Shown here in pieces: positions 3,203 to 44,008 of a stretch of DNA of 64,000 nucleotides. The notes under the pieces were generated by a model. That model saw nothing but the letters and a program-made list of their open reading frames with translations. It did not search any database and was not told the origin of the DNA. Made by a program: the position numbers and the translations under genes. Source of the DNA: Actinomycetes bacterium (GTDB taxonomy: Bacteria; Actinomycetota; Acidimicrobiia; Acidimicrobiales; RAAP-2); NCBI GenBank assembly GCA_021779735.1, contig JAJYAC010000004.1, positions 1 through 64,000 on the forward strand, read 5' to 3'. How positions within the stretch are numbered: position 1 is the stretch's first letter; each line of letters begins with the position of its first letter.

Positions 3203-3208
3203 GCGACG

Positions 3209-3214: not shown

Positions 3215-3225
3215 GGCCCTGGGCT

Positions 3226-10227: not shown

Positions 10228-10231
10228 GGTG

Positions 10232-10254: not shown

Positions 10255-10354
10255 CCGGGAGGTCCGCGCCTGGCTCCTGCCTGATGGGCCGGGTCGCGTT
10301 GAAGTCTGTGAAGAACTACACGCTTCCTTTAACCCTTCCTTATGGTTTGCTCGC

Positions 10355-10372
10355 TACCATGAGCGTAAGGAG
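10355..10372 (+). promoter_or_regulatory. -10 element and ribosome-binding site of first whiB gene
   Basis: TACCAT (10355-10360) resembles a -10 box inside an AT-richer stretch (10307-10360). AAGGAG (10367-10372) is five bases before GTG 10378 and decides that start over the ATG at 10384. Confidence 0.45.
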
Positions 10373-10377
10373 ACGAG

Positions 10378-10629: not shown

Positions 10630-10633
10630 GCAC

Positions 10634-11449: not shown

Positions 11450-11721
11450 CCGGCCTGGCTGCGGCGCTCGAGGGCGCGCGCGCGACGCAGGCGACGGCGC
11501 TCGCGCTCACTCATGCCGCCCCAGATGCCGAACTTCTCCCCGTTGTCGAGCGCGTACTCGAGGCAGTCATCGCGCACCACGCAGCCCCGACAGACTTCCT
11601 TGGCCTCCCGGGTGGACGCGCCACGCTCGGGAAAGAAGAGGTCCGGGTCCACGCCCATGCAGTTGGCGCGGGCCTGCCAGCCCCGGTCTTCCATGCCGCT
11701 CAGCAACTCAACGATCTCCAT
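11446..11721 (-). CDS. WhiB-family transcriptional regulator, WhiB2/WhmD-like
   Basis: The 91-residue protein has cysteines at 21, 44, 47 and 53 (CRGCVVRDDC), the GIWGGMSERERRRLRR turn and basic tail, and an N-terminal segment, all as in WhiB2/WhmD, which supports septation in mycobacteria and streptomycetes. Cluster ligands are complete. A GGGGAGGA ribosome-binding site precedes the ATG. The gene follows the VWA gene on the same strand but has its own AT-rich upstream region. The subfamily call rests on overall resemblance. Confidence 0.9.
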   Translation of the reverse strand: MEIVELLSGMEDRGWQARANCMGVDPDLFFPERGASTREAKEVCRGCVVRDDCLEYALDNGEKFGIWGGMSERERRRLRRARALERRSQAG

Positions 11722-11763
11722 GTTGTAGTCCTCCCCGACGGTGCTCGCACCGATGTAATTACA
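11722..11763 (-). promoter_or_regulatory. Upstream control region of second whiB gene
   Basis: A perfect 10-bp palindrome TGTAATTACA (11754-11763) lies 33 bases before the ATG. On the minus strand it also supplies TGTAAT, a near match to a -10 box. GGAGGA lies seven bases before the start. The palindrome may be an operator overlapping the -10 element. Confidence 0.4.
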
Positions 11764-11786
11764 ACGGTGTCATTGTGTCGGGGTTC

Positions 11787-11815
11787 GAGCGAAAAAGCAA
11801 ATGAAATTTTCACTC
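11787..11815 (-). terminator. Possible weak terminator after VWA gene
   Basis: A nine-base imperfect inverted repeat (GAGCGAAAA / TTTTCACTC, one mismatch) lies 20 bases past the VWA stop. On the minus strand the descending arm is T-rich. The GC content is low, so the hairpin is weak, and the stretch may instead be part of the whiB promoter region. Confidence 0.3.
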
Positions 11816-11834
11816 GTCCTGGTCAACGCCGGTC

Positions 11835-13829: not shown

Positions 13830-15253
13830 TACCGACTCCTCGAGCGATAGAGGGCCCGCGGGCCCGCGGCGTCCTTCGCGAGACGCTTGGTCAGGTAGAG
13901 CCCCTCGAGCACGAACTCCGCCGCCGAGGCCATCTCCCCGGGCGTCGCGCCGGCCCCGGCCACTCGCGCGCTCGCCGCGCGTAGGTCGGCCATCGCGTCG
14001 AGGACGCCGAGGTAGTGCGCGTCGGCCAGGTCGTCGCCCACGTGGACGAGGACCTCGTCGTTGAACGCGTTCACGATGGCGGGCGCTTCGCTCAGCACCA
14101 CGTGCTCGCTGAAGCACTGGCGCGTCGCCAGGGCCACCAGCGCCGCGATGACCTGGTCCGAGTCGGTGTCGTCGACCGTGTCGAGCTCGATCTTGCCCTG
14201 GGTGGACTGGACCATCGCGGCGAGGTCGCTCACGCGCGGCACGACGGTCGCGTCGCCCGTCTTGAGAGCGCGCCGCAACGCGCTGGCGACCACCGTCTCG
14301 TAGTTGGCGATCGAGAGGCGCACCGAAACGCCCGAACGCTGACTGATGACGTGGCTCGCGCGCGCGACGTGACTGACGCGCGCGACGATGTCGTCGATGA
14401 ACCACGGCACCACGATCGGCACCGGCGACGGCGCGAGAGTCGCCTCCTGGTGAACGATCTCGATCTCGGTGGAGATCTCGTAGGGGTAGTGCGTGCGGAT
14501 CTGGGAGCCGAAGCGATCCTTCAGGGGAGTAATGAGCCGTCCGCGGTTCGTGTAGTCCTCGGGATTGGCCGTAGCCACCACCACGAGATCGAGGTCGAGG
14601 CGCACGAGGTGACCGCGGATCTGCACATCTCGCTCTTCGAGGACGTTCAAGAGCCCCACCTGGATGCGTTCGGCGAGGTCGGGCAACTCGTTCATCGCGA
14701 AAATGCCCCGATTCGACTTCGGCACGAGACCGTAGGAGAGGGCGCGCGGGTCGTCGAGGTAGAGTCCCCCGGCGACCTTGATTGGGTCGACCTCGCCGAT
14801 GAGGTCGGCCATTGACGTGTCGGGGGTGGCGAGCTTCTCGGCGAAGCGCTCGCGACGGTGCACCCAGTCAATCGGCGTCTCCTCACCGAGACGCGCGAGC
14901 AGGTCGATCGCGTCAGGTGAGATCGGCGCGAAGGGATCGTCGCGCACGGGTGAGCCCGCGACAATGGGCAGCCACTCGTCGAGCAACTCGACGAGTGCGC
15001 GGATCATCCGGGTCTTGGCCTGGCCGCGCTCGCCGAGCAAGATGATGTCGTGTCCGGCGAGCAGGGCGGTCTCGAGCTGGGGCAAAACCGAGTCCTCGTA
15101 GCCGAGCACCGTGCTGACCAGCGGGCGACCCTCGACGAGGCGCGACTCCAGGTTCGCGCGCATCTCCTCGCGCACCGTGCGGCGTTCGTAGCCCGACTCG
15201 CGCAGGGCTCGAAGGGTTCGAGGCAGGGTTGCGGGGGCGAGGGGGCTACTCAT
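13829..15253 (-). CDS. MoxR/magnesium-chelatase-type AAA+ ATPase
   Basis: The 474-residue protein has Walker A GERGQAKT (74-81), a Walker B-like GIFAMNELPDL in which the usual Asp is Asn, and sensor-1 VVATANPEDYTNRGR. Its layout resembles ChlI/MoxR and mycobacterial Rv0958. The Asn-Glu form also appears to be typical of that branch, so it need not mean inactivity. It likely remodels a client with the VWA protein encoded immediately downstream. ATG 15253 is preceded by TAGTGT six bases away, so the pair probably has its own leaderless promoter. Confidence 0.87.
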   Translation of the reverse strand: MSSPLAPATLPRTLRALRESGYERRTVREEMRANLESRLVEGRPLVSTVLGYEDSVLPQLETALLAGHDIILLGERGQAKTRMIRALVELLDEWLPIVAGSPVRDDPFAPISPDAIDLLARLGEETPIDWVHRRERFAEKLATPDTSMADLIGEVDPIKVAGGLYLDDPRALSYGLVPKSNRGIFAMNELPDLAERIQVGLLNVLEERDVQIRGHLVRLDLDLVVVATANPEDYTNRGRLITPLKDRFGSQIRTHYPYEISTEIEIVHQEATLAPSPVPIVVPWFIDDIVARVSHVARASHVISQRSGVSVRLSIANYETVVASALRRALKTGDATVVPRVSDLAAMVQSTQGKIELDTVDDTDSDQVIAALVALATRQCFSEHVVLSEAPAIVNAFNDEVLVHVGDDLADAHYLGVLDAMADLRAASARVAGAGATPGEMASAAEFVLEGLYLTKRLAKDAAGPRALYRSRSR

Positions 15254-30010: not shown

Positions 30011-30906
30011 CCGGCGTCTTGGTGATGGCCTACGGGACGCCCACCTCGCGCGAGGACGTCGAGGCGTACTACACCCGTATCCGCCACGGACGCCCCCCGA
30101 GCGACGAGCTCCTCGCCGACCTCGTGCGCCGCTACGACGCCATTGGCGGCACTTCGCCGCTCGCCCAGCGCACGGCCGACCAGGTCAACGCGTTGCGCGA
30201 CTCGCTCGCGGCGACCAACCCCGGCCAGTACCAGGTGGTCTTCGGCTCTAAGTACGAGCCACCCCTCCTCGAAGACGCCGCGCGCGAACTCCTGGCGCGC
30301 GGCGTGACGCGGGTGGTGGGCCTCGTGCTCGCGCCCCACTCGTCGTCGATGTCCACCGATCAGTACATGGCCCGCGCGCGCGAGGCTCTCGGTGAGGGAG
30401 TCGAGTTCGTGGCGGTGGGTGCGTGGTGGGACGCCGAGGGGTTCGCTGACTTGATCGCGCGTCGCGTCACCGGCGCGCTCGCGACGATCCCCCCCGGGCG
30501 TCGCGCGCACGCCGAGGTCGTCTTCTCGGCGCACTCGCTGCCCGAGTCCATCCTCGCCTCGGGCGACACGTACCCCGAGCAGCTTGCTGACAGCGCCGAG
30601 CGCGCGGCCCAGCTCGCCGGTCTCGATCACTTCAGTCTCGCCTGGCAGTCCGCGGGACGCACCGGCGACGTCTGGCTCGGCCCGGACATCCTTGTGGTGC
30701 TGCGCGAGCTGGCCGCGCGCGGCGTACGCGACGTGGTGTCGTGCCCCATCGGCTTCGTCGCCGACCACCTCGAGGTCCTCTACGACATCGACGTCGACGC
30801 CCAGCGGGTCGCCCACGAGGTCGGCCTGAACTTGGTGCGCACGACGTCGCTCAACGACGATCCCGACTTCATCGCCGTACTCTCTCGCGTGGTGCGCGAC
30901 GCGTGA
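30007..30906 (+). CDS. hemH: Coproporphyrin/protoporphyrin ferrochelatase
   Basis: The 299-residue protein starts TGVLVMAYGTPTSREDVEAYYTRI and carries the ferrochelatase motifs LAPHSSSMS (metal-site His) and SAHSLPESIL, plus CPIGFVADHLEVLYDID near the C-terminus. In actinobacteria this enzyme (CpfC) usually inserts iron into coproporphyrin III, followed by ChdC; no chdC gene is visible here. Start and stop codons overlap both neighbours. Confidence 0.94.
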   Translation: MTGVLVMAYGTPTSREDVEAYYTRIRHGRPPSDELLADLVRRYDAIGGTSPLAQRTADQVNALRDSLAATNPGQYQVVFGSKYEPPLLEDAARELLARGVTRVVGLVLAPHSSSMSTDQYMARAREALGEGVEFVAVGAWWDAEGFADLIARRVTGALATIPPGRRAHAEVVFSAHSLPESILASGDTYPEQLADSAERAAQLAGLDHFSLAWQSAGRTGDVWLGPDILVVLRELAARGVRDVVSCPIGFVADHLEVLYDIDVDAQRVAHEVGLNLVRTTSLNDDPDFIAVLSRVVRDA

Positions 30907-32321
30907 GCCGCCCGTCGGTCGTGGTCATCGGTGGCGGCATCGCGGGCCTCGCGGCCGCGTGGGAGTTGACGGGCGCCGCGGAGGGGCCTAGCGCTGAGAC
31001 CCCGCGCGTCGAAGTCATTGAGGCGAGCACCGTCGGTGGCACCCTGGCGACCGCCACCTTTGCCGGTCGCACCATCGACGTCGGACCCGACGGGTTCCTC
31101 GCCCGTCGACCCGAGGCAATCGAGCTCATCACCGAGATGGGACTGGCCGACCAGCTGGTCGACATCGCGGCGAGCGGCGCGAGCATCTACCTGCGCGAGG
31201 CGCTCTACGAGATTCCCCGGGGCCTCGCGCTCGGCGTTCCGACCTCTCGCCAGGACGTCGCCTCCCTGGGCGGGCTCACGTGGCGCTCGCGCCTGGGCGT
31301 GCTGCGTGATCAGTGGCTGCCCGCGCGTCTCAAAGTCGGCGAGGACATCGCCATCGGCGACATCGTGCGCACGAAGTTGGGCCGCGAGCTGGCGTACCAA
31401 GTCGTCGAACCGATGGTCGGCGGCATTCAGGCCGGTCGCATTGACCACTTGAGTGCGCGCAGCCTCTTTCCCGCGCTCTACGAGGCGGCGCGTGCCGGAG
31501 GGTCGCTGACGCGCGCCCTCACGACACCGGCCGCGACACCCGCCACGGCTCCGCCAGCGCCCCTCTTCGCCACGCTGCGCGGCGGGATCGGCTCGCTGGC
31601 CAGTCGCCTCGGCGAACGACTCGCCGAGCGCGACGTCGCCGTGCGCCGCGCGACCCCCGTGCTGGCCCTGCGCCAGTCAACCCACGGCGCGCGGCGTTAC
31701 GACGTCGACACCGCCGACACCACCACGGCCGCTGACGCCGTCATCTTGGCCACGCCGGGGGCAGTGGCGGGCGCACTCGCGGGCGCGCTTGATCCAGCCC
31801 TCGCGGCGCTGTCAGAGCTTCGCAGTGCCAGCGTCGCGATGATCACCCTGGCCCTAACGCGCGGCGAACTCGACCTGTCGTTCCCCGGCACCGGCGTCCT
31901 CGTGCCCCTCGCCACGCCGTGGCGCGGCGCGGACTCGATGCTCACCACGGCCATCACCCTGCTCGAACGCAAGTGGCCCCACCTGGTCGAGGGCGACGAG
32001 ATCGTGCGCGTGCACGTGGGACGTAGCGACGACGTGCGCTTTGCGGCGATGAGCGACGCGGACCTCGTCGCGCGCGTCGTGGCCGAGTTGAACACGATCC
32101 TCGGCTCTTTTCCCGCGCCGAACGCCTGGCTCGTGCGGCGATTCCCGAACTCCCTGCCCCAGTACGAGGTGGGCCACCAGGCCCTCGTCGACGCGGCGAA
32201 GACCGCTGCCGCGCGACGCCACCTCGCCCTCGCGGGCAACGCCTACGACGGCGTCGGCATTCCCGCGAGCATCGGCTCGGGTCGACGCGCCGCGCGCGAG
32301 GTGCTCGCCGCTCTCACCTAG
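30903..32321 (+). CDS. cgoX: Coproporphyrinogen III/protoporphyrinogen oxidase (HemY type)
   Basis: The 472-residue FAD enzyme has the dinucleotide fold VVVIGGGIAGLAAAWEL at the N-terminus and IDVGPDGFLARRPE, and ends with LALAGNAYDGVGIPASIGSGRRAA, which binds FAD. It oxidises coproporphyrinogen III to coproporphyrin III in the Gram-positive route. The predicted substrate follows from its taxonomic setting and gene order with hemE and ferrochelatase. GTG 30903 overlaps the preceding stop (GTGA). Confidence 0.92.
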   Translation: MSRPSVVVIGGGIAGLAAAWELTGAAEGPSAETPRVEVIEASTVGGTLATATFAGRTIDVGPDGFLARRPEAIELITEMGLADQLVDIAASGASIYLREALYEIPRGLALGVPTSRQDVASLGGLTWRSRLGVLRDQWLPARLKVGEDIAIGDIVRTKLGRELAYQVVEPMVGGIQAGRIDHLSARSLFPALYEAARAGGSLTRALTTPAATPATAPPAPLFATLRGGIGSLASRLGERLAERDVAVRRATPVLALRQSTHGARRYDVDTADTTTAADAVILATPGAVAGALAGALDPALAALSELRSASVAMITLALTRGELDLSFPGTGVLVPLATPWRGADSMLTTAITLLERKWPHLVEGDEIVRVHVGRSDDVRFAAMSDADLVARVVAELNTILGSFPAPNAWLVRRFPNSLPQYEVGHQALVDAAKTAAARRHLALAGNAYDGVGIPASIGSGRRAAREVLAALT

Positions 32322-32373: not shown

Positions 32374-32886
32374 CTACTCGTAGTACCCGGAGTGGATGTA
32401 GATGCACGGCACGCCCTCGGCGACGTACATCGCGTGATTCTTCGGGTCGTCGTCGAGAGCGAGTCGTACGTCGAGACCGTGGGCGAGCAGGTCCGCGACC
32501 GCGGCGCGCTTGAAGGCGTCAACCCCCGAGTAGTCGCCGTACTCGCGCATGATGAGTAGGTCCCAGCGCAACGAGTAGCGCTCTAACCACGCGAGGGTGT
32601 GCGGGCGCACGCGCCGGGGACGCCCCGTCAACAAGACAATGGTCAGTGAGTGGTCGAGAAGCTCAAGAAGGCGCTCGATTTCGGCGATGACCGGGTCGTC
32701 GCCGCAGGCGTCAAAGAAGCTGTGCCAGTCGCCCCACTCCAGGTAGTGCTGACGGCCCTGCGCGTCGGCGAGCACGCCGTCGATGTCAAAAATGACTGCG
32801 GGGCCCTGTCGTGGTCCCTCTCGCCAGTACCAATTCTCACCGAGATCGTCAGTCGTCATATGTCCCGCCCGCCACGAGGGCAACAT
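32374..32886 (-). CDS. HAD-family phosphatase, polynucleotide-kinase 3'-phosphatase-like
   Basis: The 170-residue protein has HAD motif I FDIDGVLAD, motif II LTGRP and an acidic motif LALDDDPKNHAMY. It resembles the HAD phosphatase module of polynucleotide kinases, without a kinase domain. A nucleic-acid end-healing or nucleotide phosphatase role is possible; the substrate is not known. ATG 32886 lies five bases after TAGTCT; ATG 32859 is the alternative. It diverges from the lipid-modifying gene with a 17-base gap and converges on cgoX. Confidence 0.75.
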   Translation of the reverse strand: MLPSWRAGHMTTDDLGENWYWREGPRQGPAVIFDIDGVLADAQGRQHYLEWGDWHSFFDACGDDPVIAEIERLLELLDHSLTIVLLTGRPRRVRPHTLAWLERYSLRWDLLIMREYGDYSGVDAFKRAAVADLLAHGLDVRLALDDDPKNHAMYVAEGVPCIYIHSGYYE

Positions 32887-32891
32887 CTGAG

Positions 32892-32897
32892 AGACTA
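32892..32897 (-). promoter_or_regulatory. -10 element, leaderless start of HAD gene
   Basis: TAGTCT on the minus strand, five bases before ATG 32886. It lies inside the 17-base divergent gap that must also serve the plus-strand gene at 32904. Confidence 0.4.
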
Positions 32898-32903
32898 GGC
32901 GCC

Positions 32904-35903
32904 GTGGGAACCAGGGAACGCGAGACGGTGCCGATTCCCTTCGGGCACCACGTCTACGTCGTCAGCGACCTCTCGCTCTCTCCCGCCACCCGCGCCGACT
33001 CTCGCCCGGTGCGTGAACTGGTAGAACTCCTCGGCGACATTGACGACGCCGCGGTCGTCGTCGTGGCCGGCAATCTCTTCGAACCCGGTCACGCCGATCC
33101 CGCGGCCTACGTGCGCGCGACCTGGGGCGCTCTGTCGGCCCTGGCCGAGGCGGTGCGCGCCTTCGCAGACTTGCCCGAGCACCAAATTTTCGTCTTGCCC
33201 GGTAGTCACGACGCCAGCTTCCTCGAACACCCGGCCGTCATCGAGTCGCTCAGTGACCTCGGCGTCACTCTGGCGCACGATCTCATCTTGCAGGTCGCCA
33301 CGGCGCACGGCGTGCGCGACGTCGCCGTCGCTGGGGGACTCAGCGCCATTGACGTCTCGCGCGCCGACGAGAGCGAGCGCGCCGACGCGGCCCTCCTCGA
33401 AGACCCCGCGGCCCTCGAACGCTTCGCCGCGAGCCGGGTCCTCTACCGTCGACTCGCCGGCTGGGTGTGGTTGCCGATCGTGGCGATGGCGGTGCTCGAC
33501 CTCACGGGTTCGGCGGTCAGCGTCATCAACCACTTCTCACATCGCCACCTCAACTTGCACGTGCACTCGCCCCACGCGAGCAGCTTCTGGTCAAGTCTCG
33601 TCATCGCCCTCGTCGTCATCGCCATCCTCGAGGGCCTTGTCGCCGGCGTGGCCGGGCTGATCGTGAGAGGACGCTTCAGCGCCCACGCGCGCGACGCGTC
33701 CTCGGCCCTCGCCGAGCCGCTCGCCATCACCTTCGTCGACGGCGTGGACACCCTCGAGGTCGCCCGACGCGTGGCAGAACGCGGCGGGGCCGGGGCGGTC
33801 ATCGGCGGCGCGCCGCGGCCCGCGCTGGCCTTTCTCGATCGCGGGGTGTGCGCCTCGCCGGGGCCGAGTCGGCGTGTCGTCCTCGAGCGGCGCGGACGCC
33901 TCGGGCTGCCGCCGGTCTTTACCAACGCGGAGCGGCTGGGCATCGTCGAGATCGAGGCGGCGAGCACCGTCGTCGTACGACTCGTCGCCGCCGAGGAGAC
34001 CCGGCGCGCGACGACACTGCTCGAGCGACTTCTCGGTGGCGCGCCGGTGCAGCCCAGCGTGCCCGAGGCCACGACGACGATCGGCTCGTGGCCGAGCGGC
34101 GATCCTTACCCCGTGGCCCTCGATCGCCTTAGCGCCCAGCGCCGCCAGCGATCGGTTCGACGTCTGGCGAGCGGGCTGATCTTTCTCGACGGCCTTGTCA
34201 ACGTCACCGTGACCGTGCTGCCGCCCCTGCGAAGTCGCCTGCACCTGGTGCTCTCGGTCTTGCCCCTGGACGTGGCCAAGTCCGCGGCCGCGATCACCGC
34301 GGTGGTCGGCGTGGGCATGATCATGATCGCGCGCGCGATGCGTCGCGGCCAGCGTCGCGCCTGGCTCCTCGGGGTCGCCGGCCTCGCGGTGACGACCCTC
34401 GCGCACCTCGCCCGAGGAGGGGGCCTCGCCTCGGTGGCTCTGTCGGTGGCGATCCTGGCCTTTCTCCTCTTCCAGCGCGATCACTTCCAGGCGACCACCG
34501 ACCGCTCGAGCCTCGCGACGGCCCTGCCACGCCTCGGCCTCGTCGGGGCCGCGACGGTACTGGCGGCCTCCCTGGGCATCGAAGCCACCGCACGCCACCA
34601 ACTGCCCGGCTTCGGCGTGGTCGTGTGGGCCTGCGTGGAGCGCCTCGTCGGACAGACCTCGGTCACCCTCCCCGACCGGGTGGGCGACTTCATCAATCCC
34701 ACCCTGCTGACCGTCGGACTCTCGCTCATCGTCTCGGCGCTCTATCTCATCACGCGCCCGGTCGTCGACCGTCGTCTATCCGAGAAGGGTTCTTCCACCG
34801 AGCGTCGACTCGCCGAGCTGCGCGCCCGAGAGATCGTACGTCGCCACGGTCGCGGGACGCTCGACTACTTCGCTCTGCGCGACGACAAGCAGTTCTACTT
34901 CTTTCGCGACTCGCTCATCGCCTACGCGGTCTACGGTGGCGTGGCCCTCGTTTCGCCCGACCCCATCGGTCCCGTGGCTGAACGCAGCGAAGCCTTCTCA
35001 TCATTTCGTTCCTACGCCGACGCGCGTGGCTGGACGATGGGCGTCGTCGGCGCGGGAGAGGAGTGGCTCCCCCTCTACCACGCGGCCGGACTGCACTCGC
35101 TCTACGTGGGCGACGAGGCCATAGTCGACTGCACGAACTTCAGCCTCGAAGGCGGCAAAATGAAGGGACTGCGCCAGGCGGTTTCGCGTCTGACGCGCAA
35201 CGGCTACAGCGTCGAGTTCCTCGACCCGAGCGAGATCGATCCATCGCGCGTGCCCGAGCTGCTCGAACTCATCTCGATGCTGCGCCGCGGCGAGGGCGAG
35301 CGCGGGTTCTCGATGATGCTCGGACGCCTCTTTAATCCCAAGGACAAGGGCCTGCTGCTCACCGTCGTCCACGGACCCGACCACAAGCCCGCGGCGGTGT
35401 GCCAGTTCGTACCCTCGCCGGCGATCAACGGCTACTCACTCGACCTCATGCGCCGTGACCCCGGCGAACACCCCAACGGGCTGATTGACTTCGCGCTGTG
35501 TTCGACCATCAGCCACTTGCGAGAGACCGGCGGCAGGGGACTGAGCCTCAACTTTGCGGCGTTTCGCAACGTCCTCGACGGCGAGCGCGGTGAGGGCACG
35601 TTCACTCGCGTCGAACGCTGGGCGCTCAAGCGGCTCTCGGGCATCTTGCCCCTCGAGACGCTCTGGAGCTTCAACGCCAAGTACTACCCCACCTGGCTGC
35701 CGCGCTACCTCGTCTACCCCGCGCTCGAGAGCTTCGTGCCGGTGGTGGCGGCCGTGTTGCGCGCCGAGAGTCTCACCGAGATCCCCATGATCGGACGCCT
35801 GCTCGCCAACGACCCCTCCAATCGACCCGCGACCGTTGTTCCCCCGGAGGTGCTCGCCGCCGCGGCCACGCCGCCGCGCGAGCACCCGGGCGCGAGTTCG
35901 TAG
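32904..35903 (+). CDS. Lysyl-phosphatidylglycerol-synthase-like (MprF/DUF2156) protein with degenerate metallophosphoesterase domain
   Basis: The 999-residue protein has three parts. Residues ~15-310 look like a calcineurin-type metallophosphoesterase, interrupted by two transmembrane helices (~186-206, ~228-253). Its metal motifs are mostly lost: SDLSLS (22-26) for DxH, AGNLFEP (55-61) for GD, GSHD (100-103) for GNHD/E, and VIGGAPRP (299-306) for GHTH. About six more helices follow, then a C-terminal DUF2156 aminoacyl-transferase domain (~640-960: DYFALRDDKQFYFF, NFSLEGGKMKGLR, SLNFAAFRNVL). The family moves lysine or another aminoacyl group from tRNA to phosphatidylglycerol, lowering surface charge. 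No lysyl-tRNA synthetase domain is present. GTG 32904 is favoured; GTG 32928 is possible. Confidence 0.83.
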   Translation: MGTRERETVPIPFGHHVYVVSDLSLSPATRADSRPVRELVELLGDIDDAAVVVVAGNLFEPGHADPAAYVRATWGALSALAEAVRAFADLPEHQIFVLPGSHDASFLEHPAVIESLSDLGVTLAHDLILQVATAHGVRDVAVAGGLSAIDVSRADESERADAALLEDPAALERFAASRVLYRRLAGWVWLPIVAMAVLDLTGSAVSVINHFSHRHLNLHVHSPHASSFWSSLVIALVVIAILEGLVAGVAGLIVRGRFSAHARDASSALAEPLAITFVDGVDTLEVARRVAERGGAGAVIGGAPRPALAFLDRGVCASPGPSRRVVLERRGRLGLPPVFTNAERLGIVEIEAASTVVVRLVAAEETRRATTLLERLLGGAPVQPSVPEATTTIGSWPSGDPYPVALDRLSAQRRQRSVRRLASGLIFLDGLVNVTVTVLPPLRSRLHLVLSVLPLDVAKSAAAITAVVGVGMIMIARAMRRGQRRAWLLGVAGLAVTTLAHLARGGGLASVALSVAILAFLLFQRDHFQATTDRSSLATALPRLGLVGAATVLAASLGIEATARHQLPGFGVVVWACVERLVGQTSVTLPDRVGDFINPTLLTVGLSLIVSALYLITRPVVDRRLSEKGSSTERRLAELRAREIVRRHGRGTLDYFALRDDKQFYFFRDSLIAYAVYGGVALVSPDPIGPVAERSEAFSSFRSYADARGWTMGVVGAGEEWLPLYHAAGLHSLYVGDEAIVDCTNFSLEGGKMKGLRQAVSRLTRNGYSVEFLDPSEIDPSRVPELLELISMLRRGEGERGFSMMLGRLFNPKDKGLLLTVVHGPDHKPAAVCQFVPSPAINGYSLDLMRRDPGEHPNGLIDFALCSTISHLRETGGRGLSLNFAAFRNVLDGERGEGTFTRVERWALKRLSGILPLETLWSFNAKYYPTWLPRYLVYPALESFVPVVAAVLRAESLTEIPMIGRLLANDPSNRPATVVPPEVLAAAATPPREHPGASS

Positions 35904-35912: not shown

Positions 35913-36725
35913 GTGAAACGACGACCGTCGACGTGGTGGCTCGTCTTCGCGGCGCTGTGGACGGCTAGCGTCTTCGCGCTCGACGGCGTTCTCCACGACC
36001 ACCGGGTCCTGCCGATCCTCGTCGTCGTGCCCGTCATCGCGCTCGCCACCCAATTTGAACCACGCGTCGTCGTGGCCGTGAGCGCGTTTGACTTGGCGCT
36101 GACGACGGCCCTCGGTCTCCTCGATCCCGACGTCACCGCGTCGCGCCTCATCGCGACCCTGCTCGTCATCATCATGATCGGTGGCCTCTCAGCCTGGGTG
36201 TCGACGCTGCGCACGAGACTCGAAGTTGCGCTACTCCTCGCCCGTCACGACGCGTCGCACGACCCCCTCACGGGCCTGCACAATCGCCGCGCGATCGACT
36301 CGGCGGCGTCGGCACTGGTGCGGGATCACCGCAGCGCCGTCACCGTCGCGATGGCCGACGTCGATCACTTCAAGTGGGTGAACGACGCCCACGGACACGC
36401 CATCGGCGACGAAGTCCTCGTCGAGGTGGGCCAGCGCTTGCGCGCGAGCCTTCGCGTCGACGATCTCGTGGGTCGATACGGTGGTGAGGAGTTCTTGTTA
36501 ATCCTTCGCGGCGACGTCGAGCACACGCGCGACGTCGTCAAGCGCGTCGTCGAGACGGTGCGCGCCTCACCCGTCACCACGTCGGTCGGTGCCATCGACG
36601 TACGCATCTCCCTGGGCGTCTCGGGGGTGAACGGTGACGGCCTCGAGGAGGCGATTCACCACGCGGACGAGGCGATGTACCGCTCCAAGGCCGAGGGGCG
36701 CGACCGCGTCACGGTTTGGGGCTGA
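35913..36725 (+). CDS. Membrane diguanylate cyclase (GGDEF)
   Basis: The 270-residue protein has about four transmembrane helices (residues ~8-95), then a GGDEF domain. The active-site loop is GGEEF (190-194), and an RVDD motif (181-184) five residues before it forms the product-inhibition I-site. It should make cyclic di-GMP from two GTP with feedback control. No separate sensor domain is visible beyond the helices. It follows the lipid-modifying gene and converges with a second GGDEF gene, overlapping it by 17 bases. Confidence 0.9.
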   Translation: MKRRPSTWWLVFAALWTASVFALDGVLHDHRVLPILVVVPVIALATQFEPRVVVAVSAFDLALTTALGLLDPDVTASRLIATLLVIIMIGGLSAWVSTLRTRLEVALLLARHDASHDPLTGLHNRRAIDSAASALVRDHRSAVTVAMADVDHFKWVNDAHGHAIGDEVLVEVGQRLRASLRVDDLVGRYGGEEFLLILRGDVEHTRDVVKRVVETVRASPVTTSVGAIDVRISLGVSGVNGDGLEEAIHHADEAMYRSKAEGRDRVTVWG

Positions 36726-38028
36726 GGTCCTCGTCGGTGGGTTCGTCGTAGATCACCACGCGGTGCTTGCCGTCGCGCTTGGCCCGATAGAGGGCGACGT
36801 CGGCGTGCTCGATGACGTTCTCTCCGTCGCCCCGGGCGAGCCCCCAGGCGGCCACACCGACGCTGACGCGCTGGAGGACATCCGTCTCGGCAATGGCGAA
36901 CGGCTCCTCGAGCGCGCCGAGGAGCCGTTCGGCGATGCCCAGCGCGTCGCGGGGGTCGCTCAGGCGCTCGGCGAGGTAGAGGAACTCGTCGCCGCCGAAG
37001 CGACACAGCGTGTCGACGTCGCGTGCCACGCCCGATAGACGCGCCGCCACCGCGCGCAGCAGCTCGTCACCCGCGAGGTGCCCGAGACTGTCGTTCACCC
37101 GCTTGAAGTCATCGAGGTCGATCAGGATGACCGCGCCGAGGCCGCCGTATCGCGCGACGGCCGTCTTGGCCTGCGCCAGACGATTCTCGATGAGAAAGCG
37201 GTTAGCCAACCCGGTCAGGGGATCGTGCAGCGCCTGGTAGGTGAGCATCGCGGTGAGTTCGGACTCCTCGGTGATGTCGCGCTCGGAGACCACGTAGTAG
37301 AGCACCGTGCCGTTCTCGTCGCGCGCGGGCGCCTTCAGGACCTCCACCACGATCTCGTGACCGTCGCGGTGCACGTAGCGCTTCACGTAGCGCACCTTTT
37401 CCTCGTCACCCACGACGAGGCGCCGGTGAAATCCCTCGGTGATGCCCAAGTCATCGGGGTGGGTGAAGGACTGCGAGTCTTCGTGCATCACCTCTTCGCG
37501 CGAGCGCCCGAGCATCGCGCAGAACGCGTCGTTGGCCGCGACGACGCGATCGTCGAGGTCGGTGAAAATCATCGGAGCCATGGAGTTCTCAAAGGCCAGG
37601 CGAAAGCGCTGCTCGAGTCGTTCGAGTCGCACTCGCGACTCACGCTGGGCGCTGACGTCACGCACCGAGGCGACGACCCACGCGTGCCCGTCGACGTTGA
37701 CGTGCGCGAGGGAGATGTCGACGTACACCACGCCCTCGTCGCGGCGTCGCAGGGCGAATTCGCGGGCCTGGCCCATCGAGCGCGACGACGGACTCTCAAA
37801 GAACTTCTCGACGACGCGTCCGTGGCGCTCGCGCAGCGCCTCGGGCACCAGCACGTCGATGGTTCGCCCCACGAGCTCGTGGGCCTCGTAGCCACTCAGG
37901 GCCAGCAGGCTCTCGTTCACGTCGTAGATGAACCCGGCATCGTCGATGACGACGACGCCATCGGACAGCGCCTCGACGAAGGCGCGCCAGTCCAGGAGGG
38001 GGCCCTGGCGCTGCTCTAGTTTGACCAC
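36709..38028 (-). CDS. PAS-PAS-GGDEF diguanylate cyclase
   Basis: The 439-residue cytoplasmic protein has two PAS domains (~16-128 and ~140-255) and a GGDEF domain with intact GGDEF (345-349) and I-site RDVD (336-339). It should synthesise cyclic di-GMP in response to PAS-bound signals. The first PAS shares an unusual block (FFESPSSRSMGQARE, VDISLAHV) with the kinase encoded upstream. It is the last of four genes on this strand; 43 bases separate it from the kinase. GGAGG lies six bases before GTG 38028. Confidence 0.92.
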   Translation of the reverse strand: MVKLEQRQGPLLDWRAFVEALSDGVVVIDDAGFIYDVNESLLALSGYEAHELVGRTIDVLVPEALRERHGRVVEKFFESPSSRSMGQAREFALRRRDEGVVYVDISLAHVNVDGHAWVVASVRDVSAQRESRVRLERLEQRFRLAFENSMAPMIFTDLDDRVVAANDAFCAMLGRSREEVMHEDSQSFTHPDDLGITEGFHRRLVVGDEEKVRYVKRYVHRDGHEIVVEVLKAPARDENGTVLYYVVSERDITEESELTAMLTYQALHDPLTGLANRFLIENRLAQAKTAVARYGGLGAVILIDLDDFKRVNDSLGHLAGDELLRAVAARLSGVARDVDTLCRFGGDEFLYLAERLSDPRDALGIAERLLGALEEPFAIAETDVLQRVSVGVAAWGLARGDGENVIEHADVALYRAKRDGKHRVVIYDEPTDEDLSPKP

Positions 38029-38071
38029 GGCCCCTCCGAACGGACAAAGGAGTCAGCATACCGACGCCTCG

Positions 38072-39670
38072 TCACTCGGGGGGAGACTCCCGCCCGAGAT
38101 CGACAACACGGCCGGCGATCTCCTCGAGACGGCCCACCAGCTCGACCACGTCGACCGGTTTGGTCAGGTACGACGTCGCTCCGAGCGCGCGCATCCGCTC
38201 GATCTGGGCCGACGACGCGTCCGCGCTCAAGATCATGATCGGCACCTCGCGCGTGGCCGGATCCGCCCGCAGAGTCGCGAGCACGTCCGCGCCCTCAAGG
38301 TCGGGCAGGTGGATGTCGAGCAAGACGACGTCGAAGGACTCCGCGCGCAGTCGCGCGAGACCGTCAGCGCCGGTGGCCGCGTGGGCGATCTCCCAGTTCG
38401 TCGCCCGCTCGAGAGCGTCGTGGATCAGTTGCACGTTCGAAGGATTGTCCTCGATGTAGAGAAGGCGCGCGCGACGCGACACCCGAGGGTGCACGAACTC
38501 GCCTCGTGAAGGAAGTGGCGTGGAGACCGCGCGTGTCGCGCGCGGCAGGGTGAGCGAGAACACGCTGCCCTCGCCCAAGCGCGACGACGCGTCAATACGC
38601 CCGCCCATCGCCTCCGCCAACTGCTGGGAGAGCACCAGACCCACCCCCGTGCCCTCGACGTCGGTGCCGGCCGCCGCCAGGCGCTCGAAGGGCTGAAAGA
38701 GCCGCGACAGATCGGCCTCGGCAATGCCCACGCCGGTGTCGGCAACGTCGAGGCGCACGCCGGGTCCCTCGATCGTCGCGCGAGTGAACGTAACGACTCC
38801 CCCCACGCGGTTGTACTTCACGGCGTTAGAAACCAGGTTGATGAGGATCTGGCGCGTGCGCTGCCGGTCGGCGGCGACCGAGGCGGAGTCCCCGTCGAGG
38901 GAACGCGCGTCGAAGCGCACGCCGCGCTCGCTGGCGATGGGCTGGAGGAGATCGAGCACCTCGCCGAGTAGCTCCGAGACCTGCACCGACTCCGTCGACA
39001 GGCCGAGCGAACCCGACTCGACGCGAGCGATGTCGAGCACCTCGCCGATGAGTTCGAGCAGGTGGCGCCCGGCCTGGCGGATTTGAAGGAACGCGTCGCG
39101 CTGGTGGGGTGCCGACTCCATCTCCAACAGCTGAGCGAAGCCCATCATGGCGTGCAGCGGCGTGCGCAACTCGTGGCTCATGCGCGTGAGAAAACGGCTC
39201 TTCTCCTCGCTGGCGGCCTCGGCGACCTGGTGGGCGTGCTGAGCCTCGGCGCGAAGGCGGTAGTAGTCCGAGACGTCGCGCAGCGAGACGACGACCCAGT
39301 CACGCTGCGCCACGCGCACGTGCGCGAGGGAGACGTCGACGTGGCACTCGCTCCCGTCGGCGCGCATCAACAGGATCTCGCGCAGCGCGCCCATGGAGCG
39401 CGAGGCGGGCTGGGCGAAGAAGCGCTGCACGTGACCTCGGTGTATCGAGCGCAGCCGCTCGGGGATGAAGTCCTCGACCGGGCGCCCCGCCAGCCCCCTC
39501 GGCGCCACCCCCACCAGCTCTTCGGCGCGTGAGTTCGCCACGCGCACCAGTCCCGCGTCGTCGACCACGAGCACGCCGTCGGGCATGGCCTCGAGCACGA
39601 GACGCCCGTTGAGGACGCCGGCGAGCTCGGCGAGGTCCCTCTCTGCCAGCTCGTCCACCGTGCGTGCCAC
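38072..39670 (-). CDS. PAS hybrid histidine kinase with C-terminal receiver
   Basis: The 532-residue protein has a PAS domain (~20-135), a HisKA dimerisation helix with phospho-acceptor His166 in SHELRTPLHAM, an ATPase domain (NLVSNAVKYN, DTGVGIAE, GTGVGLVLSQQLAEAMGG), and a receiver domain with phospho-Asp452 (VLLDIHLPD) and Lys in LTKPVD. There is no transmembrane segment, so it senses an internal signal. GTG 39670 follows the stop of the EAL gene by one base. The receiver may serve as an internal phosphate sink or relay. Confidence 0.92.
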   Translation of the reverse strand: MARTVDELAERDLAELAGVLNGRLVLEAMPDGVLVVDDAGLVRVANSRAEELVGVAPRGLAGRPVEDFIPERLRSIHRGHVQRFFAQPASRSMGALREILLMRADGSECHVDVSLAHVRVAQRDWVVVSLRDVSDYYRLRAEAQHAHQVAEAASEEKSRFLTRMSHELRTPLHAMMGFAQLLEMESAPHQRDAFLQIRQAGRHLLELIGEVLDIARVESGSLGLSTESVQVSELLGEVLDLLQPIASERGVRFDARSLDGDSASVAADRQRTRQILINLVSNAVKYNRVGGVVTFTRATIEGPGVRLDVADTGVGIAEADLSRLFQPFERLAAAGTDVEGTGVGLVLSQQLAEAMGGRIDASSRLGEGSVFSLTLPRATRAVSTPLPSRGEFVHPRVSRRARLLYIEDNPSNVQLIHDALERATNWEIAHAATGADGLARLRAESFDVVLLDIHLPDLEGADVLATLRADPATREVPIMILSADASSAQIERMRALGATSYLTKPVDVVELVGRLEEIAGRVVDLGRESPPE

Positions 39671-39671
39671 C

Positions 39672-40874
39672 TCAGGCCCGCGAGAACACGTTCTCGAGGG
39701 CGGAACGTTCCATTGGTCGCGCCAGGTGGTACCCCTGACCCCAGTGCACGGAGAGGTCACGAATCGCCCCGAGCTCGTCGGCGTTCTCGATGCCCTCGGC
39801 GACGAGCGTGCGATCAGTCTCGGCCGCAAAGCGCACGAGGGCGGTCGCGAGGGCCCGGCGCGTGGGATCGCGGTGGATGTCGCGAATCAGTGAGATGTCA
39901 AGCTTGATGATGTCCGGGTCCAGGCCCAGGAGGTGGCGAAAGCCCGCGTAGCCCGCGCCCGTGTCGTCGGCCGCCAGGCGCATGCCGCGCTCGCGGAACT
40001 TGACGAGGGCGAGCGCCACCGCGCCGTAGTCTTCCACCGGCACGTGTTCGGTCAGCTCGAGCACCACGCGCGAGCAGAAGTCATCAGTGCACAGTTCTTG
40101 GAACGAGGAGGTCAGCAGCGCCCCGGGTGAGATGTTGAGTGCAATGAAGGCGCCCTCGGGCAGATCGTCGACGATGTGAAGCGCCGAGCGAATCGCCGCG
40201 ATCTCGAGCGCCGGACCCAGGCCCACCGAGTGAGCGAGGGAGAACCACCGATCAGGACTGAGCGACGTGTCCTCGAAGCGCGCCAGGGCCTCCACGCCGG
40301 CCACGTGACCGTCCTCGAGGTCAAAGATCGGCTGAAAGTGCATGACCATACGTTCGTCATTGAGAACGGACTCCACCCGCTCGCGCTCGCTCTGCCAGTT
40401 CTCGCGCTCCGTCTGTTCGATCGCTTGGTAGACGTCGAGTTGATCGCGCAGGCGCTGATTGTGTCCTCGCACGCTCTGATAGAGCGTGCGCGTTTCCAGG
40501 AGATTGCGCACGCGCAGCACGACCTCGCTCGCGTCGAAGGGCTTCGTGATGAAGTCGCGCGCGCCGAGGTTGAGGGCCTTGTGGGTCGCCTCGCGCGTGG
40601 AGTCCGCGGAGAGCACGAGCACCGGCAGGTACGAACCCGCCGCGCGCTCGAGGATGGTGGACAGGACCGAGAAGCCGTCGAGGTGAGGCATGTGCAGGTC
40701 GAGCAGCACGAGGTCGGGGTTGATTTCGTCGAAGTGGGCCACCGCCTCGCGCGGGTCGGTGAAGGACACCACGTTGCGAAGTCCGGCGCGGTGCAGCAGG
40801 GCTCGCAGGAGAGCGATGTTCGCCTCATTGTCATCTACGGCGAGCACCCTCGCATTGGCGAAGCGTGACAGCAC
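39672..40874 (-). CDS. Response regulator with EAL phosphodiesterase output
   Basis: The 400-residue protein joins a receiver domain (Asp59 in LVLLDLHMP, Lys in ITKPFD) to an EAL domain by a helical linker. The catalytic set looks complete: VEALARF (EAL 195-197), ALNISPG, LELTEH, AADDTGAGYAG, IKLDISLI and VAEGIEN. It should hydrolyse cyclic di-GMP when phosphorylated, probably by the kinase of the preceding gene. Its GTG shares one base with the TAG of that gene, so their synthesis is coupled. Confidence 0.93.
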   Translation of the reverse strand: MLSRFANARVLAVDDNEANIALLRALLHRAGLRNVVSFTDPREAVAHFDEINPDLVLLDLHMPHLDGFSVLSTILERAAGSYLPVLVLSADSTREATHKALNLGARDFITKPFDASEVVLRVRNLLETRTLYQSVRGHNQRLRDQLDVYQAIEQTERENWQSERERVESVLNDERMVMHFQPIFDLEDGHVAGVEALARFEDTSLSPDRWFSLAHSVGLGPALEIAAIRSALHIVDDLPEGAFIALNISPGALLTSSFQELCTDDFCSRVVLELTEHVPVEDYGAVALALVKFRERGMRLAADDTGAGYAGFRHLLGLDPDIIKLDISLIRDIHRDPTRRALATALVRFAAETDRTLVAEGIENADELGAIRDLSVHWGQGYHLARPMERSALENVFSRA

Positions 40875-42901
40875 TAGCCCTCCCCTTCCTGACGCGACGC
40901 GCTGATCGTGTCGAGCAGCCTCAAGAGGTCCTCGACGTCGATGGGCTTGGTGATGTAGTCATTCGCCCCGGCGCCGATCAGTCGCTCGATCTGACCAGGC
41001 GAGGCGTCGGCGCTGACGATGATGACGGGCACGCGCCGAGTGAGCTCGTTAGCTCGCAGGTGGCCCAGAACTTCGACGCCGCCCATGTCGGGCAGGTGCA
41101 GGTCGAGCAGGACCAGGTCAAAGTCGCGCGTCACGGCGAGGTCCAGTCCCATCTGCCCGTGGCCGGCGTGGGCCAACTCCCAGTGGGGACGACGGTGCAA
41201 GATCTGCTCGAGGAGTCGCACGTTCGAGGCGTTGTCTTCGATGTAGAGGAGGCTGGCGCGCTCGTGATGTCCGCTCGCGACGATGCCCGCGCTCGCCGGC
41301 GCGACGGCGCTCGACGTAGGTGCACTCGCCAGGGGCAGCGTCAGGGCAAAGGTCGTGCCCACACCGCTCGTGGACGTCGCGGTCAGCTCGCCGCCCATGG
41401 CGTGAGCGAGGTGCAGGGAGAGCACCAGACCGATGCCCGAGCCCTCGATGTCGCTCTCGGCCGCGCCGAAGCGCTCGAAGGGGGTGAAGAGTCGAGCCAT
41501 GTCGTGCTCGCTCATGCCGATACCGGTGTCACGCACCTCGAGGCGCACGCTCGACTCAGCGACGCGTTCACACTCGAAGACGACGCTGCCGCCCGCGCGG
41601 TTGTACTTGATCGCGTTGGAGACGAGATTGAGCAAGATCTGCTTGACCCGCTGTCGATCGGCGTGCACGTAGTAGGGGCACCCGTCGGTCGCCGACGTGG
41701 CGAGACTGACCCGTCGCTCACGCGCCATCGGGGTGAGCAGGTCGCCGACCTCGCCGATCATCTCCGCCAGACCCACGGGCTCGGAGGAAAAGGTCATGGT
41801 GCCCGACTCGATGCGCGAGATGTCGAGGACCTCGTTGATGAGATCGAGCAGGTGGCGTCCGGCGCGACGGATCTGGACGAGAGACTCTCGCTGCTCGCCC
41901 TCGGCGTCCATCTCCAGCAGCTGCGCGAAGCCGAGCACTGCGTTAAGGGGCGTGCGCAGCTCGTGGCTCATGCGCGAGAGGAACCGACTCTTCTCCTCAC
42001 TGGCCGCCTCCGCCGACTCGCGCGCGGCGCGCGCGTCGGCCTCGAGGGCGCGCCGGGTCGCGACCGCGTCGGCCAGGTGGCGCGACAAGACCCCCAGCTC
42101 GTCACCCGCCCGATCCACGTCGCCCAAGGGCTCGTCGTCACCCAGGTGGTTGGCGTCCTCGAGGAGTCGGCGCAGGCGACGGGTGAGTCCCAGCGTGAAG
42201 AAGATCATCAGGGCAACGCCGATGACCAGGCCCGCCCCAAGGGCGAGACCCACGGCGACGTTGGCGTGGACTCGGTCGTTGGCCACGACGCGCTCGCGCG
42301 TGGCCAGGAGAGTCTCCTCAGTCGCCGACATTGATGCGAGGACCGTGCGGATCGCATCGGTGGAGGACTTCTGGCGATACAGCCAGCGTGAACGTGCCGC
42401 GGGGTCGGTCACCGGCGGTATTGCCGCAAGGGTGAATTGGTAGCCCGCACCCACCAGCGAGCGCAAGGTGGCGACGCGCGCGCGTTCGACGCGGTTGTCG
42501 GCCACGAGTGCGGCGAGGTTCGAGAGATCGGGACCGATCGCCGCACGCGCTTGGTACATCGGGGCGAGGAACGCCGAGTCCCTGGTGACGAGGTAGCCAC
42601 GAATGCCCGTCTCTCCGTCGAGCACGTCGCCCGCGACCTTCTGGATGGCGTTGCGCACGGTCATCGTGTGTGTGACCCACGACTCGGAGTTCGACTCGGA
42701 CGACGACGTCGAGTAGAAGATGCTCGAGGCGACCACCAGCATGACGAGCGGCACCGCGAGCACGGCCACGCCCTTGGCCGACAGTGACCAGTCAGACCAG
42801 TGCCGCCAGGACGCGGCGCGCCCCGACGGCGCGGCCCCGACAGTTGTGCCCTCTCCTGCGGAAGCGACGTCACCTACCGATATCGGCGATTGGATGCTCA
42901 T
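40874..42901 (-). CDS. CHASE3-HAMP hybrid histidine kinase with receiver
   Basis: The 675-residue membrane sensor has a transmembrane helix (~43-62), a CHASE3 extracellular domain (~70-215, DVLDGETGIRGYLVT), a second helix (~220-240), HAMP, HisKA with MSHELRTPLNAVLGF, an ATPase domain (NLVSNAIKYN, DTGIGMSE, GSGIGLVLSLHLAHAMGG) and a receiver (LVLLDLHLPDMGG, ITKPID). CHASE3 ligands are mostly unknown. It heads the four-gene signalling operon. ATG 42901 is chosen because GGGAG lies five bases upstream; GTG 42931 is an alternative. Confidence 0.93.
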   Translation of the reverse strand: MSIQSPISVGDVASAGEGTTVGAAPSGRAASWRHWSDWSLSAKGVAVLAVPLVMLVVASSIFYSTSSSESNSESWVTHTMTVRNAIQKVAGDVLDGETGIRGYLVTRDSAFLAPMYQARAAIGPDLSNLAALVADNRVERARVATLRSLVGAGYQFTLAAIPPVTDPAARSRWLYRQKSSTDAIRTVLASMSATEETLLATRERVVANDRVHANVAVGLALGAGLVIGVALMIFFTLGLTRRLRRLLEDANHLGDDEPLGDVDRAGDELGVLSRHLADAVATRRALEADARAARESAEAASEEKSRFLSRMSHELRTPLNAVLGFAQLLEMDAEGEQRESLVQIRRAGRHLLDLINEVLDISRIESGTMTFSSEPVGLAEMIGEVGDLLTPMARERRVSLATSATDGCPYYVHADRQRVKQILLNLVSNAIKYNRAGGSVVFECERVAESSVRLEVRDTGIGMSEHDMARLFTPFERFGAAESDIEGSGIGLVLSLHLAHAMGGELTATSTSGVGTTFALTLPLASAPTSSAVAPASAGIVASGHHERASLLYIEDNASNVRLLEQILHRRPHWELAHAGHGQMGLDLAVTRDFDLVLLDLHLPDMGGVEVLGHLRANELTRRVPVIIVSADASPGQIERLIGAGANDYITKPIDVEDLLRLLDTISASRQEGEG

Positions 42902-42944
42902 CGCAACTCCCTGTGTGGCCGAAGGTACCACAAGGAAGAATAAA

Positions 42945-42974
42945 TTTATGAAGAAAATTCATATCTATAGTCAA
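42945..42974 (-). promoter_or_regulatory. Promoter of signalling operon
   Basis: On the minus strand, TTGACT (42969-42974) and CATAAA (42945-42950) are 18 bases apart, inside a markedly AT-rich tract (42931-42990). The leader to ATG 42901 would be about 37 bases with a ribosome-binding site. Confidence 0.45.
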
Positions 42975-43037
42975 CTAAAGCACTTGCTAATACCGCTTCC
43001 GATGAGCGAGTTCACCCCTACAAGACCGCTAACTACC

Positions 43038-43070
43038 GGGTAAACACCGTGATATATCTCGTGTTTGCCC
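43038..43070. repeat. Inverted repeat in signalling-operon upstream region
   Basis: GGGTAAACAC (43038-43047) and GTGTTTGCCC (43061-43070) match at nine of ten positions around a 13-base AT-rich centre. The arms and spacing suit a dimeric regulator. A terminator for the convergent ATP-grasp gene is less likely, as there is no T-tract. The rest of 42902-43168 (267 bases) shows only the promoter listed separately. Confidence 0.45.
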
Positions 43071-43168
43071 CCAAGATACGTGTCCTCGTGAAACGCACGA
43101 ACCAACCAATACGCCCAATGCCCGACGTGTCACGTGGCTCTGGCCCCGCCGTGCCGTCGCGTTGCGCC

Positions 43169-44008
43169 TCAGCGGGGTGACAGGTGCGCGAGGATCGCCC
43201 GGGCCAGACGAGCGGGAGCCGCGTCGTCGTAAGCGAGAAAGAGTGCGGGCTCGACGAGCTCGAGCTCCATCACGGCCCAGCCCTCGGGCGTGGGCACCAG
43301 GTCCACGCGCGCGTAGGTGAGATCAAAGCCCACCTCCTCGAGCACGGCGCGCGCGAGCGCGAGGGCCGCGGGATCGGCGTGCCCGCGCGACATGCGCTCG
43401 GCGCGATAGAGGCGATCGCGGGTGTCGGGTGCGACGTTGAGCATCGCGGCCTTGACCATGGCGTGGCTGAACTCGCCGGCGAGAAAGACGAGTCCCGTCT
43501 CGCCCACGTCGTCCACGCTCACCACGTAGGGCTGGATCAGCGCGTCGCGCCCACTCTCGTGCAGGCGAGCCACGTGCGCGCTCGCGCGCTCGCCCTCGGA
43601 GGGTGCGTAGCGGTCCGCGTCGATCGATCCCGCCCCCACGCAGGGCTTGACGACGAAGTCGACGTCGTAGAACGTCGGGGTCTCACCCACCGAGACGAGT
43701 CGCGTGGGCACGATGCGATGTCCGCGCGCGGCGAGGTCGAAGAGGTAGCGCTTGTCCGAGGAGTACTCGAGCGCCTCGTAGGGGTTGGCCACGCGCGCGA
43801 GCGAGCGCGCCCAGGCGAGAAACGCCTCGCGCTGGCTCGTGTAGTCCCACGTCGAACGCACCACCGTGAGCTCGTACTGGTCCCAGTCGACTCCCTCGTC
43901 GTTCCAGACCTCGAGGCGCGCGTCCACGCCCAGGTCCTCAAGGGCGCCCACCAGCAGTCCAGCGTCGGGATCGACCTCGTGCGCACAGGTCGCGAGAGCG
44001 ACTCTCAC
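43169..44008 (-). CDS. ATP-grasp family ligase
   Basis: The 279-residue protein has an ATP-grasp layout similar to RimK/glutathione-synthetase-like enzymes and the DcsG group. Visible features are SSDKRYLFDLA, the core VDFVVKPCVGAGS, and the metal-binding end WAVMELELVEPALF. It should join a carboxylate to an amine or similar nucleophile using ATP; the substrate is unknown. GTG 44008 overlaps the nuoN stop (GTGA), so it is translationally coupled to complex I, though no direct link is known. Confidence 0.75.
   Translation of the reverse strand: MRVALATCAHEVDPDAGLLVGALEDLGVDARLEVWNDEGVDWDQYELTVVRSTWDYTSQREAFLAWARSLARVANPYEALEYSSDKRYLFDLAARGHRIVPTRLVSVGETPTFYDVDFVVKPCVGAGSIDADRYAPSEGERASAHVARLHESGRDALIQPYVVSVDDVGETGLVFLAGEFSHAMVKAAMLNVAPDTRDRLYRAERMSRGHADPAALALARAVLEEVGFDLTYARVDLVPTPEGWAVMELELVEPALFLAYDDAAPARLARAILAHLSPR

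Follow-up and report, generated by a model that had tools for sequence, protein, structure and literature searches.

A candidate c-di-GMP module with two sister kinases, one of them a mosaic PAS kinase, in an acidimicrobial genome

Cells hold many enzymes that act in opposite directions on the second messenger cyclic di-GMP (c-di-GMP), and it is an open question how an enzyme for its synthesis and one for its breakdown come to answer to a single cue. Several described systems bear on it. In the Roc system of Pseudomonas aeruginosa (RocS1, RocS2, RocR), as its account in PMC12051241 has it, two paralogous kinases feed one receiver-EAL phosphodiesterase. In the E. coli pair DgcO-PdeO (DosC-DosP), the enzymes that make and degrade c-di-GMP are encoded together in an operon and governed by haem O2 sensors, while in Shewanella oneidensis the kinase HnoK controls the receiver-coupled phosphodiesterase HnoB in response to a gas cue taken up through haem, both as outlined in PMC8846402. 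In Pseudomonas putida, according to the account in PMC6849547, the CHASE3 hybrid kinase CfcA is needed by the c-di-GMP response regulator CfcR. Here, we describe a locus that resembles each of these in part: four genes, g1 to g4, in a window of 64,000 nucleotides (positions 1 to 64,000 of contig JAJYAC010000004.1, assembly GCA_021779735.1) from an Actinomycetes bacterium assigned to RAAP-2 in the Acidimicrobiales. They encode two hybrid histidine kinases, a receiver-EAL regulator and a predicted diguanylate cyclase, and the second kinase carries the same class of PAS domain as the cyclase.

Gene order and domain content

The four genes lie on the minus strand. The first, g1 (40874-42901), encodes a membrane hybrid histidine kinase of 675 aa, in which Pfam detects CHASE3 (2.9e-24) between two hydrophobic segments, together with HisKA, HATPase_c and Response_reg; pattern checks place the phospho-His at residue 313 and the receiver Asp at residue 600. 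Its start is the ATG after aGGGAGttgcg, and the longest mechanical frame begins at 42931. The 400-aa product of g2 (39672-40874) is a receiver-EAL response regulator (Response_reg 6.5e-27, EAL 1.2e-47) with Asp59 and the EAL motifs intact, and is a predicted c-di-GMP phosphodiesterase. The third gene, g3 (38072-39670, GTG start), whose longest frame begins at 39829 inside g2, encodes a cytoplasmic hybrid kinase of 532 aa with PAS, HisKA, HATPase_c and Response_reg domains, its phospho-His being His166 and its receiver Asp Asp452. Both g1 and g3 therefore combine a HisKA phospho-His, HATPase_c and a C-terminal receiver, as expected of hybrid histidine kinases. Finally, g4 (36709-38028) encodes a PAS-PAS-GGDEF protein of 439 aa (GGDEF 9e-41 plus two PAS stretches) that keeps FKRVNDSLGHLAGD, the RxxD inhibitory site (RDVD) and the GGDEF motif, and is a predicted diguanylate cyclase with its substrate motifs intact. 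The catalytic roles of the motifs and residues checked in g1 to g4 are those that we take to be standard. These results bear out the gene order and spacings given by a first-pass annotation of this DNA, as well as its view that the catalytic motifs look intact and that one sensor is in the membrane and one in the cytoplasm. Its domain content is likewise recovered by Pfam (CHASE3, HisKA, HATPase_c, receiver, EAL, PAS, GGDEF), except for a HAMP domain in g1, for which Pfam gives no match even at E <= 10.

The protein encoded by g4 ends after GGDEF. Among its nearest relatives, PAS-PAS-GGDEF-EAL proteins of the genus predominate (51-55% identity in the first rows of matches), and one of these, at 57% identity, is found in the same genome. 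The EAL domain is missing from g4, and the EAL activity of the operon is predicted to be supplied by g2.

The genes are tightly spaced: g1 and g2 have 1 base in common (TAG and GTG), g2 and g3 are 1 base apart, and the 43 bases between g3 and g4 hold a ribosome-binding-like site of their own. Upstream of g1 lies an intergenic region of 267 bases (42902-43168, minus), presumed to hold the promoter, with 52% guanine-cytosine (GC) content versus 68.7% for the window. Of all 120-base stretches in the 64 kb, the one lowest in GC (40%) begins at 42941, just upstream of g1, which fits a promoter there. We found no sigma-70 consensus promoters in the region and no terminators above chance (3 found, 2.7 expected), and at gathering level Rfam matched only a tRNA in the window, giving no sign of riboswitch control. 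The four genes appear to form a single module, presumably a cotranscribed operon. This view draws on the tight spacing and the low-GC stretch before g1, and also on the recurrence of the kinase/receiver-EAL pair in relatives, the sister relationship of the two kinase cores and the lack of a detected histidine phosphotransfer (Hpt) protein, as described below. Likewise, the frames are long and match their domains strongly, and a g1-g2 type pair recurs in relatives, all of which argues that the arrangement is not due to chance.

A recurrent cassette and its sister kinases

Full-length relatives of g2 (40-53% identity over at least 381 of its 400 residues) occur in 15 of 100 related genomes, from which we fetched 20 regions, these 15 among them. 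A hybrid kinase adjoins the receiver-EAL gene in 13/15, a count that includes G008 and G015, where the kinase is cut by the contig end; the exceptions are G034 and G044. The adjacent kinase is usually upstream (downstream in G065 and G004), and its frame often overlaps that of its partner by 4 bases, or by 1 base as in g1/g2. Its sensor varies, from membrane sensors in G097, G092, G088 and G007 to a FixL-like PAS in G039, G015, G003, G057 and G004. Within the genus, 13/99 genomes (own genome included) hold a full-length g2 relative, and a named genome collection yields one clear extra case, L039, in which a receiver-EAL gene is followed by a CHASE3 kinase. This recurrent adjacency, combined with varying sensors, indicates that the kinase and receiver-EAL genes are a conserved cassette of these bacteria, one that swaps its sensor and keeps its output.

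Other forms of the pair are also seen. At L130 (G044, 388-3260), a multi-pass membrane GGDEF gene directly follows the receiver-EAL gene, with 1 base in common, giving another breakdown/synthesis pair. Two copies look damaged: at L131 (G031, 11304-14468), receiver and EAL are in separate frames, with an intact copy elsewhere in G031, and at L125 (G023, 8996-12157), the PAS is split off its kinase. Both could be assembly errors.

A tree built from 100 kinase cores places g1 and g3 as sisters (support 100/97). Together they join the receiver-EAL partner kinase of G004 (98/82), and the surrounding group contains many partner kinases of this kind. On this tree, the partner label requires 7 changes, compared with 15.1 in shuffles (0/500 as low), with one locus, L126, relabelled by hand as the overlap of its frames exceeds what the automatic rule allows. 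Because the two cores are sisters among partner kinases, both g1 and g3 probably feed g2. The first-pass annotation had suggested that the two sensors could oppose each other on the same second messenger, an idea that sits poorly with two kinases that both look like partners of one EAL regulator; our analysis suggests instead that the opposed outputs are the EAL of g2 and the GGDEF of g4. Besides g1 and g3, the genome encodes a third kinase with this type of core, of PAS-kinase-receiver architecture (L230, G000:C11, 4542-6113), and no receiver-EAL gene was detected on its 8.9 kb contig.

As for the route of phosphate, Pfam finds no Hpt domain in g1 or g3, and none was found in the draft genome, whereas 8/14 control genomes have one. 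A relay through Hpt was rejected on this basis, and with both kinases in the cassette, direct transfer to g2 would be the simplest route. The genome is a single draft, 88.7% complete in 108 contigs, which makes the absence of Hpt, like that of a PilZ receptor discussed below, a weak one.

The PAS domains of g3 and g4

On sequence grounds, g3 is a mosaic of a g1-type kinase and a g4-type PAS. Its kinase half is nearest g1 (54% identity over query residues 133-519), while its PAS lies nearest to the N-terminal PAS of g4, with 46% identity over about 115 residues. The DNA divides in the same way, with the left part best matching g4 (70% over 132 bases) and the right part g1 (68% over 1103 bases). 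At both the DNA and protein level, g1 and g4 are the best matches of the two halves among 230 fetched loci plus the window, where loci representing the same part of the source genome were excluded. Across 99 genus genomes, the best non-self match of the g3 PAS is again g4 (92.9 bits), followed at 79.5 bits and less by HisKA_3 kinases and GGDEF-type proteins of relatives. Leave-one-out profiles, which classify 54/54 PAS domains (22 GGDEF-type, 32 kinase-type) correctly, give the g3 PAS 106.1 bits with the GGDEF-type profile versus 79.8 with the kinase-type, a 26-bit difference. In trees, it groups with GGDEF-type PAS domains with support of 99/98 (58 rows) and 99/94 (72 rows). Approximately unbiased (AU) tests on the 72-row tree reject its union with the G004 kinase PAS (p 0.0127) and with 8 PAS rows from partner kinases of the genus (p 0.0105); g3 and g4 as sisters are not rejected (p 0.487).

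Several points weigh against this origin or call for caution. On the 58-row tree, the AU test leaves a placement of the g3 PAS among kinase PAS domains unrejected (p 0.33), and the groups of the 72-row test were defined with knowledge of a first tree. The alignment is short, at about 114 columns, and there is some circularity in the sampling: the PAS-finding profile was seeded with the g3 and g4 domains, the GGDEF rows were fetched by likeness to g4 or to the g3 PAS, and similarity to g2 or g3 was used to fetch the kinase rows. In the larger tree, the g3 PAS branches off basally in the GGDEF clade and only doubtfully beside g4, and for this reason g4 itself is not put forward as the donor. A strict split between all kinase PAS and all GGDEF PAS domains was true of 58 rows and failed once HisKA_3 kinases of the genus, with a PAS close to the GGDEF clade, were added; g3 is therefore not taken to be the only kinase with a GGDEF-type PAS. 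With these points considered, inheritance of the g3 PAS from its own kinase's relatives is disfavoured, and we conclude from the comparisons that it appears to have been captured from a g4-type protein. The synthesis enzyme and the kinase paired with the breakdown enzyme thus share one sensor class.

Both domains, the g3 PAS (39266-39604, minus) and the N-terminal PAS of g4 (37651-37974, minus), are candidate haem sensors. The best matches of the g3 PAS among solved structures are 10jx, the FG214 haem PAS (4.1e-10), and FixL (1.2e-8), while those of the g4 PAS are DosP (2.9e-12) and FixL (1.3e-10). An AlphaFold model of the g4 PAS (mean predicted local distance difference test score, pLDDT, of 86) has the haem domains of DosP and FixL as its top Foldseek matches. 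The helix-F histidine, which the survey in PMC10468136 presents as the primary haem-binding determinant in the FixL/DosP cluster, has an aligned counterpart in His77 of g3 and His69 of g4. Both proteins further keep a Met at +16 (Met93 in g3, Met85 in g4) and an Arg at +20 (Arg97 and Arg89), spacings that were counted by hand. These arginines fall in the aligned column of the distal Arg, which we take to be R220 in FixL and R97 in DosP. We consider haem binding by the two domains slightly favoured. Some partner kinases of the cassette have a FixL-like PAS that is the stronger haem candidate (G039, G015 and G003). An FG214-like His/Met spacing is also present in the first PAS of HisKA_3 kinases of the genus that combine PAS domains with GAF (L232, L233, L236, L237, L254).

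Proposed wiring and its relation to described systems

The best overall explanation, to which we give an even chance, is a branched control of g2 by two kinases that is joined to g4 through a haem-type PAS cue in a push-pull arrangement. The architecture, the motifs, the kinship of the kinases and the mosaic nature of g3 are the parts that can be read from the DNA directly. In the proposed scheme, g1 would take a periplasmic cue through CHASE3 and g3 a cytoplasmic cue through its PAS, and each would phosphorylate Asp59 of g2 directly, with no Hpt relay in between. The EAL domain of g2 would then degrade the c-di-GMP that g4 makes. With g3 arising as a copy of a g1-type kinase core joined to a g4-type PAS, one cytoplasmic cue would reach the breakdown-controlling kinase as well as the predicted cyclase, and membrane kinase g1 would add a second cue. 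The PAS most likely binds haem and would report O2, NO or redox state, with the outputs of g2 and g4 answering in opposite directions, a sign that is our choice. No PilZ receptor was found in the draft genome as an output, which counts against the scheme. A bolder version, in which recombination within the operon joined the g1-type kinase core to its neighbour's haem PAS and the duplicated membrane kinase acts as a periplasmic veto over a push-pull response to the shared haem cue, we regard as unlikely. If it were true, capture of a domain within an operon, so that two genes share a sensor, would offer a general means of wiring opposed enzymes to one signal. The wiring is legible in the sequence, as a duplicated partner kinase that carries the sensor class of the adjacent cyclase, and it leads to the prediction that one cue acts on both c-di-GMP outputs.

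The same wiring with a PAS that binds another ligand or serves only in dimerisation is a serious contender, at somewhat less than even chances. Here, the retention of His, Met and Arg in both g3 and g4 and the predominance of haem PAS domains among the best solved matches must be set against several observations. His and Arg occur together in only 2/22 GGDEF-type PAS domains, one of them that of g4. Among 33 relatives, 21/33 have the His at the expected spacing and 1/33 the Arg as well, a count by regular expression that misses FixL itself and was hence used for GGDEF rows only. Haem is thus not a family-wide trait, and about 40% of sequences in cluster 3 of the PAS survey lack the histidine, by the figure in PMC10468136. 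In VIA-align, moreover, the top row for the g4 model is the CPS_1291 PAS, which is not described as a haem protein, and LOV/flavin, NifL and other PAS folds score close behind in a near tie.

It is rather unlikely, in our judgement, that only one kinase is a true partner of g2, the other having drifted to another regulator or serving chiefly as a decoy or phosphatase. In favour of this reading, duplicated kinases usually drift apart in their specificity, 7/24 residues around the phospho-His helix differ between g1 and g3, and relatives get by with a single kinase beside each receiver-EAL gene. The two cores are still sisters inside the partner cluster, however, and the g3 helix is on average nearer those of partner kinases than others (0.66 vs 0.48), in a comparison of 77/100 rows where the partner mean includes g1 and g3 themselves. 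Less probable again, and quite improbable to us, is that the four genes are neighbours without joint function, comprising a g1-g2 pair and an independently placed g3 and g4. The full set was found in no other locus or genome examined, which weighs against a module, as do the 43-base gap with its own ribosome-binding-like site and the occurrence of g4 relatives elsewhere as separate genes. Against mere adjacency stand the 1-base spacings of the first two junctions, the PAS class common to g3 and g4, and the chance-level count of terminators.

The surroundings of the locus include a convergent membrane GGDEF gene outside the operon (35913-36725, plus; 270 aa, Pfam GGDEF 6e-39, GGEEF motif, three hydrophobic segments), which overlaps the 3' end of g4 by 17 bases. 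The first-pass annotation overlooked this gene, as it did the common PAS class of g3 and g4 and the mosaic make-up of g3. Beyond it, a long protein (32811-35903, plus) has a phosphatidylglycerol lysyltransferase domain at its C terminus and no Pfam match in its long N-terminal part. Protoporphyrinogen oxidase, an enzyme of haem synthesis, is encoded at 30741-32321 (plus), a few kilobases from the candidate haem sensors, and nuoL, nuoM and nuoN lie on the other side of the locus; either may be coincidence. On that side, a protein at 43169-44008 (minus) that overlaps nuoN by 4 bases has no Pfam match and scores 219.9 bits against a cut-off of 360 for the D-cycloserine synthetase DcsG model.

When compared to described systems, all four proteins fall below the curated cut-offs of the NCBIfam equivalogs examined (PvrR, DosP, FixL, NahK, TorS). 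The closest solved PAS to that of g3 belongs to FG214, a haem PAS transcription factor of Fimbriimonas ginsengisoli. Its proximal ligand His156 and alternative distal ligand Met172, as given in the preprint PMC13060918, have same-spacing counterparts in g3 and g4; FG214, however, is a helix-turn-helix protein with a distal His175, whereas g3 and g4 lack that His and carry the FixL/DosP Arg. The likeness of g1 to CfcA lies in the CHASE3 hybrid kinase, but CfcR is a GGDEF/EAL response regulator that acts as a cyclase, and the account in PMC6849547 names one kinase. In HnoK-HnoB, haem resides in a separate protein, HnoX, and the description in PMC8846402 includes nothing like the cyclase and second kinase of this locus. 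DgcO-PdeO shares the one-operon layout, but DgcO senses by a globin and PdeO by a PAS (PMC8846402, in its outline of the pair), while here the breakdown enzyme would be reached via a kinase and haem is only a candidate. The front part of DosP is what g4 resembles (151.3 bits against a cut-off of 857), with DosP having the C-terminal EAL that g4 lacks.

The closest parallel is Roc, in that two paralogous kinases, here sisters with one gene between them, face a single receiver-EAL protein. The Roc kinases, as portrayed in PMC12051241, are unorthodox and contain Hpt, and the system occupies two loci with the transcription factors RocA1/RocA2, in contrast to one operon with a GGDEF gene; g2 reaches 107.7 bits with the PvrR model, for which the cut-off is 580. 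Without Hpt, with a different layout and with a score far below that cut-off, the locus works like Roc yet is not a member. A literature search, mostly judged without full text, found no description of a kinase and a cyclase with the same sensor class in one operon. Every part of this locus is of a known kind, and it is the combination, with its mosaic kinase, that is new.

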